DNA of 64,000 nt from Frondihabitans australicus (lineage in GTDB: Bacteria; Actinomycetota; Actinomycetes; Actinomycetales; Microbacteriaceae), in assembly GCF_003634555.1 (NCBI RefSeq), contig NZ_RBKS01000001.1, forward strand, positions 3,038,001 through 3,102,000, read 5' to 3'. The notes beneath the pieces were generated by a model that was not told where the DNA came from, did not search any database, and worked only from the letters and a program-made list of their open reading frames with translations. The translations under genes were made by a program, and so were the position numbers. Shown one piece after another: positions 1,466 to 35,160 of the stretch (positions within the stretch are counted from its first letter, which is position 1; every line of letters begins with the position of its first letter).

Positions 1466-1566
1466 TTGTCAATTGATATCTCACGTGAAATAGTACATGT
1501 CGAATGCGGACAGTCCGCAGACCCGGCTCATTACGTTCCGGGTCGATCACCCCACAGAAAGCACCA
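1466..1566 (+). promoter_or_regulatory. Promoter and conserved leader of the first secreted paralogue
   Basis: A possible -35 (TTGTCA, 1466-1471) is followed after 17 bp by AATAGT (1489-1494). The block 1522-1566 (CCGGCTC..., CGGGTCGATCACCCC, CAGAAAGCA) is closely similar to the regions immediately before the paralogues at 4303 and 5341. The conserved block reaches close to the start codon and probably includes the 5' UTR and ribosome-binding region. No classical purine-rich SD is obvious. Confidence 0.5.
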
Positions 1567-1572
1567 ACCTCT

Positions 1573-2433
1573 ATGCGAAAGCTCACTAGGGCCGCCGTGC
1601 TCGGCGCCACCGTCGCCGTCGCTGGCATCGCCCTGCTCCCCACCGCGGCCAACGCGGCCGAGAACGTCGTCCAGGTTCCCCTCGCGCAGGGCGCCACCGG
1701 CGACCTCGTGTGGTCGTTCACGAACACCGGCGCAGCTGTGAATAATCTGCGAGACGGCAGCACCATCGCGTTCTCCGCTCCGACGGGCACCACATTCCCC
1801 GGCCAAACGACCGTCCCCTCCTACTTCGGCACCGTGGGCACCGGCAACGCCATGCACTACACGGGCTGCACCGTCTCGAACGCCGGCAAGACCCTCACCT
1901 GCGACGTCAACATGAACGGACTCACGAACATCAGTTGGGGAACCAACGGCACGTTCATCGCCACCCCGAAGGTCACCGTCGCCGCGAACGCAGCCCCGGG
2001 CGCCTATACCTCCTCCTCCGCCACGCTCAACCTGACCGGAAGCAACGGCAGCATCACCGCCTCAGCGGGTCTCCGCGTCAAGGTCACGATGGCTGCGCCG
2101 CAGTTCAGCAGTGTGGACAACTCGGGCGATACGACCGTCCTGAAGGGCAGCGGCACCCCCGGCGCAACCATCGCCGTGAAGGACGCCAGTGGCAACACCA
2201 TCGGCGCTGCGACCGTTGGGTCCGACGGCAGCTGGTCGGTCGACCTCGGCGCCGACTTCTCCAACGGGAGCGGCGACCTCACCGTCACGCAGTCGCTCAA
2301 TGGCGAGACCTCGCCTGAGGCGACCTTCGCCGGCGCAGACCTCCCGGTCATCAACTCGGCGATCGCCGGCGGCGCCGGCCTGGCGACCCTCCTCGGCGCG
2401 GGTGCCTTCCTGCTCCGCCGTCGCATGGCCTGA
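1573..2433 (+). CDS. Secreted Ig-like surface protein, LPVIN paralogue 1
   Basis: This 286-residue protein has a Sec signal peptide (MRKLTRAAV, then a hydrophobic stretch ending ANA-A near residue 28). An extracellular beta-rich N-terminal domain contains paired Cys (residues around 97-110). A bacterial Ig-like module (about 180-250; GSGTPGATIAVKD, GSWSVDL) follows. The last 30 residues form LPVINSAIAGG, a hydrophobic helix and RRRMA. This has the layout of a cell-wall sorting signal but lacks LPXTG. The start at 1573 is preferred over 1504 because it matches the signal peptide and both paralogues. The protein is probably envelope-anchored; its function is unknown. Confidence 0.85.
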   Translation: MRKLTRAAVLGATVAVAGIALLPTAANAAENVVQVPLAQGATGDLVWSFTNTGAAVNNLRDGSTIAFSAPTGTTFPGQTTVPSYFGTVGTGNAMHYTGCTVSNAGKTLTCDVNMNGLTNISWGTNGTFIATPKVTVAANAAPGAYTSSSATLNLTGSNGSITASAGLRVKVTMAAPQFSSVDNSGDTTVLKGSGTPGATIAVKDASGNTIGAATVGSDGSWSVDLGADFSNGSGDLTVTQSLNGETSPEATFAGADLPVINSAIAGGAGLATLLGAGAFLLRRRMA

Positions 2434-2452
2434 CAACGACGCCACACGCACC

Positions 2453-2486
2453 GAACGCCCCGTCTGCACCTGCAGGCGGGGCGTTC
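2453..2486 (+). terminator. Intrinsic terminator after LPVIN paralogue 1
   Basis: A perfect 10-bp GC-rich stem (GAACGCCCCG / CGGGGCGTTC) is extended by an inner TCTGCA/TGCAGG stem. It lies 20 bp after the stop codon. Equivalent hairpins follow both other paralogues. No long T-run follows, as is usual in high-GC actinobacteria. Confidence 0.75.
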
Positions 2487-2501
2487 CGCGTCCTTGCGAG
2501 C

Positions 2502-2526
2502 CCCGAGACCAGGGTGCGCTCAGGGT
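2502..2526 (+). promoter_or_regulatory. PspC-associated 25-bp element, copy 2
   Basis: This is identical to 1423-1447 and ends 45 bp before the start codon of the PspC-domain gene at 2571. It contains CAGGGT-N5-CAGGGT. Its position before a second PspC-family gene supports a regulatory role. Confidence 0.5.
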
Positions 2527-2570
2527 GATCCCCGATGGCGGCGCAGGAGCGGTGAGACCACGATCGGAGC

Positions 2571-3743
2571 ATGTCAGATCACACCACGACCTCCGCCGCG
2601 GGAGACGACGCCACGTCGCGTCCCCGCCCCGCCCCCGGTCAAGGCTTCTTCGACTGGGTGCGCCGCCTCGGCCTCCAGCGCGGCGACGCCTGGATCGGCG
2701 GCGTCTGCGGCGGCATCGCCGCCCGCCTCGGCATCGACCCCATCATCGTGCGCGGCATCGCCGTCGTCGTCGCGCTCCTTGGAGGCCCGGCGTTCCTCCT
2801 CTACGCCCTCGCCTGGCTCCTGCTGCCCGACACCCAGGGCACCATCCACCTCGAACGCCTGATCGGCGGCGTGTTCGACGCCGCCGCCGCGGGTGTTGCG
2901 ATCTTCGTGCTGCTCGCCTTCCTGCCGATCGCGCAGGGCGTGTGGTGGGCGGCCGCGTGGCCGTTCGGCAGCGCCGCGAGCTGGGCCGTGTCGCTCGGCA
3001 AGGTGTTCTGGAGCGTCCTCGTCATCGCCGCGATCGTCGCCCTCGTCGTCTGGCTGTCCAGGCGCGCGGGCGGCAGGGGCGGCTGGGGGCCGTCGCCGTG
3101 GGCGGGTGCAGGGCCCGGAGGCTACGGTACGTCGGCGTCGGCCGCCCCGGAGGACGGCGCCGGTGGAGCGGGGGCTGCCACGAGTACGGCTGCGGATCCT
3201 GCGCCCAGCGGCTTCGTGCCCGGCGCCGCGCCCACCGGCCCGAACGGACCAGCCCCGGCCGACGTCGCCGACTGGCGCGCCCGGCAGGCCGAGTGGCGCA
3301 CCCGGTACGACTCGTGGAAGGTCGAGGAGGCCGCGCGCGCCGAGCAGCGCCGCGAACAGCGCCGGGCGCAGTCGGCCGAGGCGGCGAAGTGGCAGGCCGA
3401 CGCGCTCGAGAAGGCGCGCCTGCGACGCCTGGCCTCGCCGCGGACGAGCGGTGCCTACGTCGCCGCCTCGCTCGGAGTAGCCCTGATCGTCGGCGCCATC
3501 GCGGCAGCGGTCTCGTGGGGCGACGCGTCGCTGCACGAGTTCCAGGCCGTCTACGGGTTCGCGGCGGCCACCGTCGTGATCGGCGTCTCGATGATCGTCG
3601 CGGGCCTCTCGCGGCGCCGGAGCGGATTCCTCGCCTTCGTCGCGATCGTGCTCACCGTCATCACGGTCGGGCTGCTGGCCTCGCCGTCGATCCCGTCGCC
3701 GTACTCCCTGCTCACCTACCCGTTCTCCCTCGTCTTCCGATGA
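2571..3743 (+). CDS. PspC domain-containing membrane protein
   Basis: This 390-residue protein has an N-terminal PspC domain (about residues 40-90; WIGGVCGGIAARLGIDP then a membrane helix and WLLLPDT). Two further hydrophobic segments lie at about 105-165. A long Ala/Gly/Pro-rich and charged cytoplasmic-type region follows (about 170-285, with a coiled-coil-prone EARAEQRREQRRAQ stretch). The last roughly 100 residues hold three to four membrane helices. PspC proteins respond to envelope stress. It shares its upstream element with the PspC kinase at 113-1378 and is coupled to the small membrane protein that follows. Confidence 0.88.
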   Translation: MSDHTTTSAAGDDATSRPRPAPGQGFFDWVRRLGLQRGDAWIGGVCGGIAARLGIDPIIVRGIAVVVALLGGPAFLLYALAWLLLPDTQGTIHLERLIGGVFDAAAAGVAIFVLLAFLPIAQGVWWAAAWPFGSAASWAVSLGKVFWSVLVIAAIVALVVWLSRRAGGRGGWGPSPWAGAGPGGYGTSASAAPEDGAGGAGAATSTAADPAPSGFVPGAAPTGPNGPAPADVADWRARQAEWRTRYDSWKVEEAARAEQRREQRRAQSAEAAKWQADALEKARLRRLASPRTSGAYVAASLGVALIVGAIAAAVSWGDASLHEFQAVYGFAAATVVIGVSMIVAGLSRRRSGFLAFVAIVLTVITVGLLASPSIPSPYSLLTYPFSLVFR

Positions 3744-3754
3744 AAGGCCCGAAC

Positions 3755-4183
3755 ATGTCCGACGACGACCAGCCCACGCTCCCCCTCGGCTCGACCCCGA
3801 GCTCGCCGACCGAGCCGCTCGACCACCCCACGCTGCCCCTCGCGTCTCCGACCGAGCCGCTCTTCGCCGCGTCTCCGGCAGAGCCCACGCCCGAGACCAT
3901 CCGGGCGCAGGAGCAGGCCGACACTCCGCCGGCTCCTGCCCCTCTCGCCCCTCGACCCCGCACCCGCTGGGCCGCCGTCGTCTGGGGCGCCCTGTTCGCG
4001 GCCTTCGGCGTCGTCGTGATGAGCGTGCTGTCGAATGCGGCCAACCGCGCCGCCTACGCCGACTGGGTGACCGGCCTCGGGCCGTCGGGCTCGACGCTGC
4101 TGGGCATCGCGGCGCTCGGCGCCCTGCTGCTCGTACTGGGTGTCGTGGCCGCCGCGAACCGCGCGTCACGCCGATCTTTATGA
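3755..4183 (+). CDS. Small two-helix membrane protein
   Basis: This 142-residue protein has an N-terminal half rich in Pro, Ser, Thr and Glu with repeated PTLPL(G/A)S and SPTEPL motifs. Two hydrophobic helices follow (about residues 70-92 and 108-132) with a basic tail. An ATG at 3740 overlaps the upstream stop, but the ATG at 3755 is preferred because GAAAGG lies 7 bp before it. It forms an operon with the PspC gene. No family is recognised; a role in the same envelope response is inferred from the operon. Confidence 0.75.
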   Translation: MSDDDQPTLPLGSTPSSPTEPLDHPTLPLASPTEPLFAASPAEPTPETIRAQEQADTPPAPAPLAPRPRTRWAAVVWGALFAAFGVVVMSVLSNAANRAAYADWVTGLGPSGSTLLGIAALGALLLVLGVVAAANRASRRSL

Positions 4184-4189
4184 ATATTA

Positions 4190-4302
4190 TTGCAGGTTGA
4201 TATTTTGCGTGTCACACTGGATGCAGATCGTGGGCAACCCGCCCCAGCCCGGTCCGCTGCGTTTCGGGTCGATCACCCTCCACCAGAAAGCATCTTTCAG
4301 AC
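4190..4302 (+). promoter_or_regulatory. Promoter and conserved leader of LPVIN paralogue 2
   Basis: A TTGCAG (4190-4195)/TCACAC (4212-4217) promoter with a 16-bp spacer matches the promoter of the third paralogue in arrangement, sharing ATATTTTG in the spacer. It is followed by the conserved leader from about 4247 (CCCGGTCC, TTTCGGGTCGATC, CAGAAAGCATCTTTCA) that runs to the start codon. Confidence 0.55.
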
Positions 4303-5151
4303 ATGCGCAAGCTCACCAAGGCCGCCGTCCTCGGCGCCACCGTCGCCGCCGCCGGCATCGCCCTCTTCCCCGCTGCCGCCAACGCGGCCCCCTCGAACGT
4401 CACCGCGTCGATTGCTCCCGGCGAGACCGGCCTCGTGACCTGGACGACGACGGCTCCCGTCGCCGGAACGACGGATACGTCCTTTCAAGTCGATATCAAT
4501 CTGGCCAACGTCGTGACCATGCCGGCGCAGAGCTCCGTTCCGCTCTACATCAACGGCACCCGAGTCTCGGACATGACCAACTGCGCACCAAACAGGTACG
4601 CCTTCCTTCTTACCTGCACTGCTCCCGCACTCACCCTCGCGGCCGGTGATGTCATCACGGTCACTCCCACTGCGACCGTCAATCCCGGAACTGCCCCGGG
4701 TGTTTACCCGGGCAGCGCGGCATCCTTCGCCTACAGGGACACCTCGGGCGCCGTCGTGACCGCCGCGAAGGGCAACTCGTCGATCACCGTGGGCGAGGCA
4801 GCCGCACTGGCGGCTCCGGCGGTCGACAACGTGTCGAACGCGAGCGGGTCGACCGTGATCAGCGGCACCGGTGTCGCCGGCGCGACGATCCAGATCAAGA
4901 ACCCGGCCGGCGCGGTCATCGGCACCACCACGGTCGCCGCCGACGGGTCATGGTCGGTCGACATGGGCTCCGACATGTCGCAGAGCCCCGAAGACCTCGC
5001 CGTCACCCAGGCCATGAACGGCCAGACCTCGCCCGCCACCATGATCGACGGCGCCGCGCTGCCCGTCATCAACCCGGCCATCGCCGGCGGCGCCGGCCTC
5101 GCCGCCCTCCTCGGCGCCGGAGCCTTCCTCCTCCGCCGCCGCATGGCGTAA
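4303..5151 (+). CDS. Secreted Ig-like surface protein, LPVIN paralogue 2
   Basis: This 282-residue protein has the same signal peptide as its paralogues (MRKLTKAAVLGATVAAAG, cleavage near ANA). Its N-terminal domain is more divergent and has two Cys. The Ig-like repeat (SGTGVAGATIQIKNPAG, GSWSVDM) is conserved, and the last 30 residues are almost identical (LPVINPAIAGG, hydrophobic helix, RRRMA). Conservation is highest in the leader, signal peptide and tail and lowest in the mature N-terminal domain, as expected for surface proteins diversifying in the exposed part. The gene has its own promoter and terminator. Confidence 0.85.
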   Translation: MRKLTKAAVLGATVAAAGIALFPAAANAAPSNVTASIAPGETGLVTWTTTAPVAGTTDTSFQVDINLANVVTMPAQSSVPLYINGTRVSDMTNCAPNRYAFLLTCTAPALTLAAGDVITVTPTATVNPGTAPGVYPGSAASFAYRDTSGAVVTAAKGNSSITVGEAAALAAPAVDNVSNASGSTVISGTGVAGATIQIKNPAGAVIGTTTVAADGSWSVDMGSDMSQSPEDLAVTQAMNGQTSPATMIDGAALPVINPAIAGGAGLAALLGAGAFLLRRRMA

Positions 5152-5167
5152 CACCCCGCACCACCGC

Positions 5168-5200
5168 GACGCCCCGCAGACCACACGTCTGCGGGGCGTC
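5168..5200 (+). terminator. Intrinsic terminator after LPVIN paralogue 2
   Basis: A perfect 14-bp stem (5168-5181 with 5187-5200, GACGCCCCGCAGAC arm) encloses a 5-nt loop, 17 bp after the stop codon. The arms are identical to those of the hairpin at 6258-6290. Confidence 0.85.
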
Positions 5201-5227
5201 CGCCGTTCGCACTCGCTTCCCGCGTGC

Positions 5228-5340
5228 TTTACATCTCATATTTTGTCTGTAACACTAGATATTGATCCTGGGCGACCCCGCCCTAACCCGGTCCACTGTG
5301 TTTCGGGTCGATCTCCCCAACCAGAAAGCATCTTTCACAC
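5228..5340 (+). promoter_or_regulatory. Promoter and conserved leader of LPVIN paralogue 3
   Basis: TTTACA (5228-5233) and TAACAC (5250-5255) are separated by 16 bp and form the best promoter of the three cassettes. The leader from about 5287 to the ATG is nearly identical to that at 4247-4302, including the AGAAAGCATCTTTCA run directly before the start. Confidence 0.6.
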
Positions 5341-6204
5341 ATGCGAAAGCTCACCAAGGCCGCCGTCCTCGGCGCCACCGTCGCCGTCGCCGGCATCGCC
5401 CTCCTGCCCACCGCTGCCAACGCGGCCGAGAACGTCGTCCAGGTCCCGATCGCCCAGGGTCAGAGCGACGACCTCGTCTGGAGCTTCACCAACGCCGCCA
5501 CCGCCTTCTACAACATCGAGAACGGCGGCCAGATCACCTTCAACGCTCCGGCCAACACGACCTTCCCCGCCCAGCAGACCGTGACCACGCATTACGGCGA
5601 CCTGTCCACCGGCAACGCCCTGACTCTGACCTCGTGCTCGACCGGCGCGGCGGGCAAGACGCTGACCTGCTCCGTGTCCGTTCCCAACTCGAACGTCGCG
5701 TGGCCCGCCAACGGGCGCTTCCTCTTCGCGCCGAAGGTCACGGTTGCGGCAGACGCGACCCCCGGCGCCTACACCGGCGCCGCGTCGACGCTCAACCTCA
5801 CGAGCTCGACGACGACCGACACCTTCTCAGCCTCGGCCGCCCTCCGCGTTAAGGTCACGATGGCCGCCCCGACGTTCAACAAGGCCGACAACTCGTCCGG
5901 CTCGACCGTCCTCAGCGGCAACGGCACCCCCGGCGCCACCATCAACGTGAAGAACGCCGCCGGCGACATCATCGGCACCACCACCGTGGCCGCCGACGGC
6001 TCCTGGTCGGTCGACCTCGGCACCGACCTCTCCGACGGCGCCTCGGCCCTCACCATCAGCCAGTCGCTGAACGGCGAAACCTCGCCCGAGACCACTGTCG
6101 ACGCCGCCGACCTGCCGGTCATCAACGCGGCCATCGCCGGCGGCGCCGGCCTCGCCGCCCTCCTTGGCGCCGGCGCGTTCCTGCTCCGCCGCCGCATGGC
6201 CTGA
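5341..6204 (+). CDS. Secreted Ig-like surface protein, LPVIN paralogue 3
   Basis: This 287-residue protein is closest to paralogue 1. They share NAAENVVQVP after the signal peptide, DLVWSFTN, TPGAYT, and the Ig-like module with GNGTPGATINVKN and GSWSVDL. It ends in LPVINAAIAGG, a hydrophobic helix and RRRMA. Two Cys occur in the N-terminal domain. A class E sortase gene is present at 34393, but its family prefers LAXTG-like motifs, so linkage to it is only a hypothesis. The gene is monocistronic. Confidence 0.85.
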   Translation: MRKLTKAAVLGATVAVAGIALLPTAANAAENVVQVPIAQGQSDDLVWSFTNAATAFYNIENGGQITFNAPANTTFPAQQTVTTHYGDLSTGNALTLTSCSTGAAGKTLTCSVSVPNSNVAWPANGRFLFAPKVTVAADATPGAYTGAASTLNLTSSTTTDTFSASAALRVKVTMAAPTFNKADNSSGSTVLSGNGTPGATINVKNAAGDIIGTTTVAADGSWSVDLGTDLSDGASALTISQSLNGETSPETTVDAADLPVINAAIAGGAGLAALLGAGAFLLRRRMA

Positions 6205-6257
6205 TAGCCAGGCCGAGCAGTACCCATTGCGGCACCAAGCCGCAGCATGCACCACGC

Positions 6258-6290
6258 GACGCCCCGCAGACCACGAGTCTGCGGGGCGTC
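6258..6290 (+). terminator. Intrinsic terminator after LPVIN paralogue 3
   Basis: A 14-bp perfect stem (6258-6271 with 6277-6290) has the same arm sequence as the terminator at 5168. It sits between the paralogue and the convergent GntR gene. Confidence 0.85.
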
Positions 6291-6328
6291 GTGCGTTCAC
6301 CGAGTCGCCCGCCCTGGAGGAGACGCTC

Positions 6329-34392: not shown

Positions 34393-35160
34393 TCAGGCTC
34401 CCTTCACTTCGGAGGCGATCTCGGCCGGCGGTCCTGCCGACAGCGGCTGCCACGACGTGAAGACGCCGTAGGCGATGATCCGCTCGGCGGCCGAGTACTT
34501 CGGGTTGCAGCTGGTCATCGTGATCAGTCTGTCTTTCGAGTCGGCCGCGGTCAGCTTCGGTGCATCGGGCACCTGCTGCAGCACCTGCACCTGAGTCGGC
34601 TTGACGTACTCGAGGTTGCGGAACGTGTAGGTGTACCAGCCCTGAGCCGTCTGCACGTAGATGTGATCGCCCACGCGCAGGTCGGCGATCGACCCGAAGG
34701 GGGCGCCGTGCGTGGTGCGGTGGCCGGCGACGGCGAAGTTGCCGATCTGACCGGGCATCTGGGTGTCGTCGTAGTGACCGGCGTAGCCCTTGTCGAGCGT
34801 GCCCGAGGTCGTCGTGCCGCCCGCGATCGGCACCTTGTAGGTCGACCCGAATCGCGGCACGTAGAGGACGCCGAAAGTGCCCGTGCCCTTCACCGGCGGA
34901 GTGATCGCCGGGTTCGTGCTGCTGCCTGGCGTCGCGGTGGGGGCCGGAGTCGCGGTGGCCTTCTGCTGCAGCGACCGGCTGATCGACGACGCCTGGTTGC
35001 TGGTCTGGTTCGAGACGACGACGTCGTTGAACCACTGCTGCCAGGCGATGAACATCAGGACCAGAACGCCCATCGTGATGAGCACCTCACCCAGCACGCC
35101 CACCACCGACGTGCCGCGCCCCGCACGCCGGCGCCCCGCGTGCTGGAGCTGGTCTGTCAT
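34393..35160 (-). CDS. Class E sortase
   Basis: This 255-residue membrane transpeptidase has an N-terminal helix (about 22-42) and a Pro/Thr-rich linker. The sortase core contains catalytic His147 (VAGHRTTHG), Cys218 (MTSCNP) and Arg227 (AERII). Class E sortases of actinobacteria anchor proteins with LAXTG-like signals. No canonical substrate lies next to it in the window. The LPVIN-tailed proteins at 1573-6204 are remote candidates only. Confidence 0.92.
   Translation of the reverse strand: MTDQLQHAGRRRAGRGTSVVGVLGEVLITMGVLVLMFIAWQQWFNDVVVSNQTSNQASSISRSLQQKATATPAPTATPGSSTNPAITPPVKGTGTFGVLYVPRFGSTYKVPIAGGTTTSGTLDKGYAGHYDDTQMPGQIGNFAVAGHRTTHGAPFGSIADLRVGDHIYVQTAQGWYTYTFRNLEYVKPTQVQVLQQVPDAPKLTAADSKDRLITMTSCNPKYSAAERIIAYGVFTSWQPLSAGPPAEIASEVKGA

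Follow-up and report, generated by a model that had tools for sequence, protein, structure and literature searches.

LPVIN tails of three Ig-like secreted proteins in Frondihabitans australicus as probable exosortase sorting signals

Three secreted proteins (A, B, and C) encoded in a 64,000-nucleotide stretch of the Frondihabitans australicus genome (contig NZ_RBKS01000001.1, positions 3,038,001 to 3,102,000 of the forward strand; hereafter, the window) end in a common tail, LPVINxAIAGGAG-helix-RRRMA. With a probability of roughly three in four, we propose that an actinobacterial exosortase system of the PVV-CTERM kind uses these LPVIN tails as its C-terminal sorting signals, and that they are read by XrtR, the sole exosortase detected in this genome. 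We infer recognition of a proline followed by two hydrophobic residues (P-hydrophobic-hydrophobic) by XrtR because of co-occurrence, gene neighbourhood, and synteny. An initial annotation, made from the sequence alone, had noted that the tail has the motif-helix-basic layout of sorting signals and is neither LPXTG nor LAXTG, and this description is borne out.

Three secreted proteins with a common C-terminal tail

The proteins and their parts are as follows.

1573..2433, + strand: tail protein A, 286 residues; signal peptide, N-terminal domain, Big_6, LPVINS tail (open reading frame list, Pfam, alignment)
2113..2340, + strand: Big_6 Ig-like domain of A, residues 181-256 (Pfam)
2341..2430, + strand: C-terminal tag of A; LPVIN (2341-2355), hydrophobic helix, RRRMA
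4303..5151, + strand: tail protein B, 282 residues; signal peptide, divergent N-terminal domain, Big_6, LPVINP tail (open reading frame list, Pfam, alignment)
4822..5046, + strand: Big_6 Ig-like domain of B, residues 174-248 (Pfam)
5059..5148, + strand: C-terminal tag of B; LPVIN (5059-5073), helix, RRRMA
5341..6204, + strand: tail protein C, 287 residues; signal peptide, N-terminal domain, Big_6, LPVINA tail (open reading frame list, Pfam, alignment)
5893..6111, + strand: Big_6 Ig-like domain of C, residues 185-257 (Pfam)
6112..6201, + strand: C-terminal tag of C; LPVIN (6112-6126), helix, RRRMA

The initial annotation described a three-copy secreted family with near-identical signal peptides and last 30 residues and with divergent N-terminal domains, and the open reading frames and alignments agree. 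All three proteins share an ATG start (MRKLT[KR]AAVLGATVA) at 1573, 4303, and 5341; position 1466 is merely the upstream start of an overlapping frame, not the start of A. Across the copies, residues 1-29 and the final 30 are almost the same, and the N-terminal domains are 23 to 56% identical. The signal peptides, called by eye and with a crude filter rather than with a signal-peptide program, keep a charged start, a hydrophobic core, and an ANAA end in all three copies. The Ig-like module does belong to a known family type, as had been stated: Pfam Big_6 (PF17936) matches A, B, and C with 44.8, 42.8, and 46.3 bits, above the cut-off of 27.6 in each case. In an AlphaFold model, the domains are beta-rich and residues 262-285 form a helix at the C-terminus (low confidence); the 50 matches listed by Foldseek against the PDB are mostly Ig-like or beta-rich modules, with query TM-scores of 0.20-0.35.

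In pairwise comparisons, 6-11 of the last 32 codons differ synonymously and 2-3 in the amino acid encoded, and in the N-terminal domain 62-103 of 133-142 codons change the residue. Because synonymous sites differ while the tail amino acids stay, and N-terminal codons change widely, the tail is kept by selection, and reflects neither chance nor just recent copying. When the 32-residue tail was used as a query against the whole genome (E up to 10), only A, B, and C were near-identical.

Tails of the same layout in other genomes

The initial annotation suggested that the signal might be unrecognised, which is only partly so, as NCBIfam already holds a model, PVV_CTERM (NF051874), for a choice-of-anchor G protein. 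The A, B, and C tails match it at 15.0-16.7 bits (up to 21.6 in the genome scan), below the cut-off of 27. We therefore rejected filing them under PVV_CTERM itself and retain them only as tails of its kind. GVDTG_CTERM matches several tails weakly (13.9-18.3 bits; cut-off, 29). A scan with NF051874 matched 148 of 299 genomes at E up to 0.01, eight of them over the cut-off; among 30 loci read, four have real PVV tails and the remainder are LAxTG-type or other. These four, all genuine members from elsewhere in the family, carry VPVANP, VPLMSP, VPVVNQ, and VPLINP ahead of the helix.

Two further tail proteins, more diverged, occur in the F. australicus genome (G000; G and L numbers denote genomes and fetched loci), where the five tail genes are dispersed. 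The fourth, at 1.198 Mb, has VPVVHP. The fifth (TPVIAP...RRKRA; L172 4855-5616, + strand; G000:C1:97354-98116, 0.098 Mb) was found through both its N-terminal domain and its tail, and its whole-protein match to the window proteins spans the N-terminal domain only. A search for related loci in genome contigs returned just three distant matches, all in the Ig-domain region.

Profile A2, built from eight tails including four from this genome, was run over 398 genomes of the family and matched 59 at E up to 0.01. Of 25 A2 loci outside the seed genomes, 20 were read, matches for which no locus was fetched being left unread. Among these 20, the motif is present in three genomes: G326 (TPMLHP), G353 (TPLMHP), and G384 (LPIMNP, two proteins). 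Most other matches read are LAxTG-type or unrelated. Overall, the layout in other genomes is P, two hydrophobic residues, often N/H-P, a helix, and RRR, and it is found on unlike proteins, namely choice-of-anchor G, Big_6 proteins, and proteins of 228 and 253 residues.

The annotation had proposed that free variation of LPVIN alongside a retained helix would speak against a signal, and this is half the case. In 20 collected tails the fifth residue varies (N, S, H, A, D, E, or G; N in 8/20), and the proline and the two hydrophobic residues that follow are present in 20/20, although part of this conservation is imposed, as tails were accepted by eye on the motif, and the G774 tail by a filter for it.

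A profile trained on foreign tails only gives the window tails and the 1.198-Mb tail 25.0-28.1 bits, compared with at most 20.4 for 16 control tails. The controls comprise 13 top matches of exosortase-less genomes and three LAFTG tails of F. australicus; the 13 come from 16 exosortase-less loci (L155-L171), with G033, G039, and G007 dropped where the frame has no such tail end. Leave-one-out scoring passes for the tails of G283, G065, G105, G058, G384, G068, G326, and G353. With another profile (A6; 46 genomes), 13 of 14 exosortase genomes score 3e-7 or better and the best of the 32 others 5.9e-4, a result that we do not count, as the profile was trained on those tails.

Association with exosortases

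An all-against-all comparison of the fetched loci revealed a common neighbour adjoining tail genes of differing architecture. This neighbour is a GT2 glycosyltransferase that NCBIfam models as "XrtP-associated glycosyltransferase"; it scores 615 and 637.5 bits at two of the choice-of-anchor G loci and 291 in G326 (cut-off, 520). Beside it lies an exosortase: in G326 an R-like one (133 bits; cut-off, 150), and at the choice-of-anchor G loci exosortase S, which scores 143-210 bits and exceeds the cut-off of 145 in three of the four.

Processing by a sortase or another enzyme had been envisaged in the initial annotation, together with a search for a co-occurring processing enzyme. An enzyme of their own is probable for these tails, but the leaning towards a sortase was mistaken, as the associated family is exosortase. 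Exosortases are rare in the family: a trimmed exosortase profile matched 14 of the 398 genomes, including all eight with verified tails, F. australicus among them. The chance of a match in all eight is p 2e-13; for the two tail genomes whose exosortase is outside the profile (G000 and G384), p is 4e-4.

The association was also approached from the enzyme. Eight regions around exosortases outside the profile and one from another family of the phylum (G774), each 7.7-20 kb, were classified for proteins with a signal peptide, a C-terminal helix, a basic end, and P-hydrophobic-hydrophobic. Such a protein is present in 7 of the 9 exosortase loci (one of two calls in G068 may be spurious) and in 1 of 20 arbitrary 19.5-kb stretches of exosortase-less genomes; in that lone positive control, the protein also contains three other hydrophobic stretches. 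No such protein was picked up at the F. australicus locus or in G384, in which the tail gene lies ~9 kb from the exosortase, just beyond the stretch. In G774, a choice-of-anchor P protein with an LPIVGG tail (L177 7003-7890, - strand) is encoded ~1.5 kb from an exosortase that scores 72.6 bits, below the XrtR cut-off, hinting that the pairing of tail and exosortase might reach beyond the family.

Several observations weigh against the proposed system. The value of 2e-13 is inflated, as 6 of the 14 enzymes had been picked up next to tails and put into the profile. The searches score only 8-19 candidates per genome. In the reverse test, the motif was fixed after most of those tails had been read, only G774 being unseen, and G077 and G139 already had weak tail matches. 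The A, B, and C tails fall short of the PVV_CTERM cut-off, and the tail profile alone does not separate the genomes: G342 (4.5e-6) and G210 (3.1e-5) match A2 and have neither an exosortase match nor the motif, the G210 tail reading LPVTG. Leave-one-out scoring fails for G268 (16.0), G228 (2.2), G103 (7.4), G077 (20.1), and G139 (16.0), compared with 21.6-22.9 for the best control in those rounds, and these five tails rest on adjacency, homology, and the short motif. Finally, none of the five F. australicus tail genes adjoins XrtR.

The XrtR cassette and its absence from congeners

XrtR has 207 residues (G000:C1:1952428-1953051; L135 9429-10052), is encoded ~1.09 Mb from the window, and matches NF012138 with 165.8 bits (cut-off, 150). 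An XrtR search over the phylum matched 2 of 396 genomes, F. australicus and a weak one, and the related enzymes in G326, G353, G228, G384, and G774 are below the NF012138 cut-off. C102, R147, and H167, which we take to be the catalytic residues, are invariant across 11 compared exosortases. A sortase-like triad is described for the exosortase superfamily (PMC1569441; PMC11980579).

The gene for a GT2 glycosyltransferase overlaps xrtR by four bases. Its product is 74% identical to that of G268 and 69.4 and 68.5% identical to those of G326 and G353, and has 270 bits on the XrtP-associated model, below the cut-off of 520. Just upstream is a 57-residue membrane protein (MYEIGTPIAGG...LAYTGF-helix-basic; L135 9214-9387, + strand; ~1.952 Mb). 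A like protein of 54-74 residues, in most cases starting with MY, accompanies the exosortase at 13 of 15 loci, and LAxTG is present in 11 of these 13.

L113, L114, L115, L116, L118, L135, L137-L142, and L177: small membrane protein beside exosortase

NCBIfam LAXTG_small matches five of six scanned small proteins, all below the cut-off. The small LAxTG protein is a possible accessory subunit. With E up to 0.01, a profile built from it matches 283 of the 398 family genomes, in many cases within a longer frame, and the ten best matches are its own training members. G174 (1.1e-12, with one internal stop) and G382 (2.8e-11), both lacking an exosortase match, match in unread short frames, and on such matches the protein cannot be called exclusive to exosortase genomes.

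The XrtR cassette is missing at the exact site in all six congeners compared, whose flanking genes adjoin each other with 56-156 bp separating the aligned ends, versus 2.56 kb in F. australicus. No part of it was found in the fetched stretches of these congeners, and a profile search found no exosortase match in any of the six.

At the window locus, a PspC-domain histidine kinase gene (113-1378, - strand) and a PspC gene (2571-3743, + strand) flank tail gene A. In the four congeners that keep PspC (the match in G003 is partial), the kinase gene is 96-205 bp from it, and the two form a divergent neighbour pair in four of six congeners. No tail gene was detected in the ~15 kb fetched around the kinase and PspC genes in these four; the other two congeners, which have no clear PspC match, were left out of this comparison. 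The GntR and MFS genes that follow tail gene C were not found in the congener stretches, so that the B and C sites have no counterpart for comparison. The motif is absent from the tail-profile matches read in G001, G002, and G006, a weak match in G003 being unread. Within the genus, in few genomes, enzyme and substrates are present or absent together.

Alternative explanations

The proteins could instead be held uncut in the membrane by the helix and RRR, with LPVIN a conserved linker carried along by duplication. A helix with a basic end would suffice as an anchor, the motif is short and variable at its fifth residue, and A, B, and C are duplicates that also share a leader and terminator-like repeats. 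We consider this simple anchor unlikely, since unlike proteins carry tails of this layout, which track exosortases, and since the tail amino acids are held while synonymous sites change.

More doubtful still is that the tail is a sortase signal of divergent sequence, recognised by one of the four sortases matched in this genome (4.04 Mb, one contig), such as the class E enzyme encoded in the window.

34393..35160, - strand: class E sortase of this genome (NF033747, 239.9 bits; cut-off, 160); not the predicted partner of the LPVIN tail

Class E sortases read LAXTG. The three-part layout of A, B, and C is that of sortase substrates, including the helix and basic end, but the LPVIN tail has no Thr-Gly at motif positions 4-5, and the sortase-type tails read in this genome (three proteins) are LAFTGS; on these grounds LPVIN was rejected as a sortase signal. 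Moreover, four Big_6-type relatives from the congeners without an exosortase carry LAMTGS, LAFTGS, or LAFTGT at their ends (others there lack such a tail). The AIAGGAG at the start of the helix could also be taken for a cleavage site, at AGG, of an intramembrane protease of the rhomboid or CPBP type. Rhombosortase reportedly acts on similar three-part tails. So does myxosortase (PMC11980579). As AGG is also found in LAxTG tails, and is thus unspecific, such cleavage seems very improbable, though no search aimed at these proteases was made.

Proposed mechanism

If the LPVIN tails are exosortase signals, the anatomy of the proteins predicts export by the signal peptide (Sec) and retention by the C-terminal helix with RRR inside. 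XrtR would then recognise P-hydrophobic-hydrophobic just outside the membrane. By analogy with the superfamily, it would cut near this motif through Cys-Arg-His and transfer the protein to an acceptor on the outer surface, such as a lipid, glycolipid, or polymer. Because a glycosyltransferase is linked to the exosortase, the acceptor is plausibly a glycolipid or polymer that this partner helps to make. In archaeosortase A, cleavage is coupled to C-terminal lipid attachment (PMC7157517).

A broader proposal, for which we see the odds as even, is that a complete XrtR pathway operates in this single-membrane actinobacterium. Its 2.5-kb cassette (XrtR, a glycosyltransferase dedicated to it, and a tiny accessory protein of the LAxTG type; absent at the site in congeners) would sort at least five scattered Ig-like and other surface proteins via the P-hydrophobic-hydrophobic tag, in parallel with the class E sortase, onto a non-peptidoglycan acceptor.

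Arrangement of the window genes

Short repeats lie near the three tail genes.

1512..1552, + strand: shared leader element before A, repeat family D7
4238-4278 (B) and 5277-5317 (C): shared leader elements before B and C, repeat family D7; the other copies of the family are 66 and 88% identical to that before B
5165..5208 (after B), with a second copy at 6255-6298 (after C), + strand: palindromic GC-rich terminator-like repeat, family D8; palindrome read from sequence

The genes look free-standing, because the leader is common to all three and the terminator-like repeat to B and C. An AT-rich stretch of similar wording precedes B and C. The leader element and this stretch possibly reflect common regulation.

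Relation to known systems and implications

The closest known counterpart is the PVV-CTERM choice-of-anchor G protein (NF051874 with NF033766), which has P-hydrophobic-hydrophobic-[N/S]-P (in three of four read), a helix, and RRR, and whose loci in other genomes lie beside exosortase S and a GT2 enzyme. The window proteins differ: they carry Big_6 and another N-terminal domain and fall short of the curated cut-off, and the exosortase of their genome is XrtR, encoded far off. XrtR itself resembles exosortase R (NF012138) in scoring above the cut-off and keeping the Cys, Arg, and His. Class E sortase and LAXTG form another signal-helix-basic system in actinobacteria, and both systems coexist in this genome, but the LPVIN tail has no Thr-Gly and the enzymes are unrelated.

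The PEP-CTERM/EpsH system (Haft et al. 2006, PMC1569441) shares the three-part tail, a residue triad likened to that of sortase, and an exopolysaccharide context. By contrast, the motif here is P-hydrophobic-hydrophobic rather than PEP, the host is actinobacterial, and few substrates were found; Haft et al. note that PEP-CTERM examples were lacking in Actinomycetes. Archaeosortase A/PGF-CTERM (PMC7157517), in which cleavage is coupled to C-terminal lipid attachment, is similar in its exosortase-like enzyme and tail layout, and differs in its archaeal S-layer context and PGF motif.

Searches of an open literature library (exosortase, PVV-CTERM, and CTERM with actinobacteria, and Xrt names) showed no work on such an actinobacterial system among the matches listed. 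Exosortases R, S, and P, PVV_CTERM, and the glycosyltransferase are already named in NCBIfam. As far as this analysis shows, the novelty lies in linking LPVIN proteins with Big_6 and N-terminal domains to XrtR, in the dispersal of the substrates, in the small accessory protein, and in the joint presence or absence.

Exosortases are best known from Gram-negative bacteria. With the present proposal, an odd tail becomes a testable enzyme-substrate pair in a Gram-positive organism, with one enzyme and five predicted substrates in one genome, with the cassette naturally absent from close relatives, and with the coexisting sortase as an internal control. Our results suggest that annotating surface proteins as sortase substrates is best avoided where their ends are LPVIN-like. 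If the proposal is true, this system would reveal the acceptor onto which an exosortase places proteins when the cell has no outer membrane.

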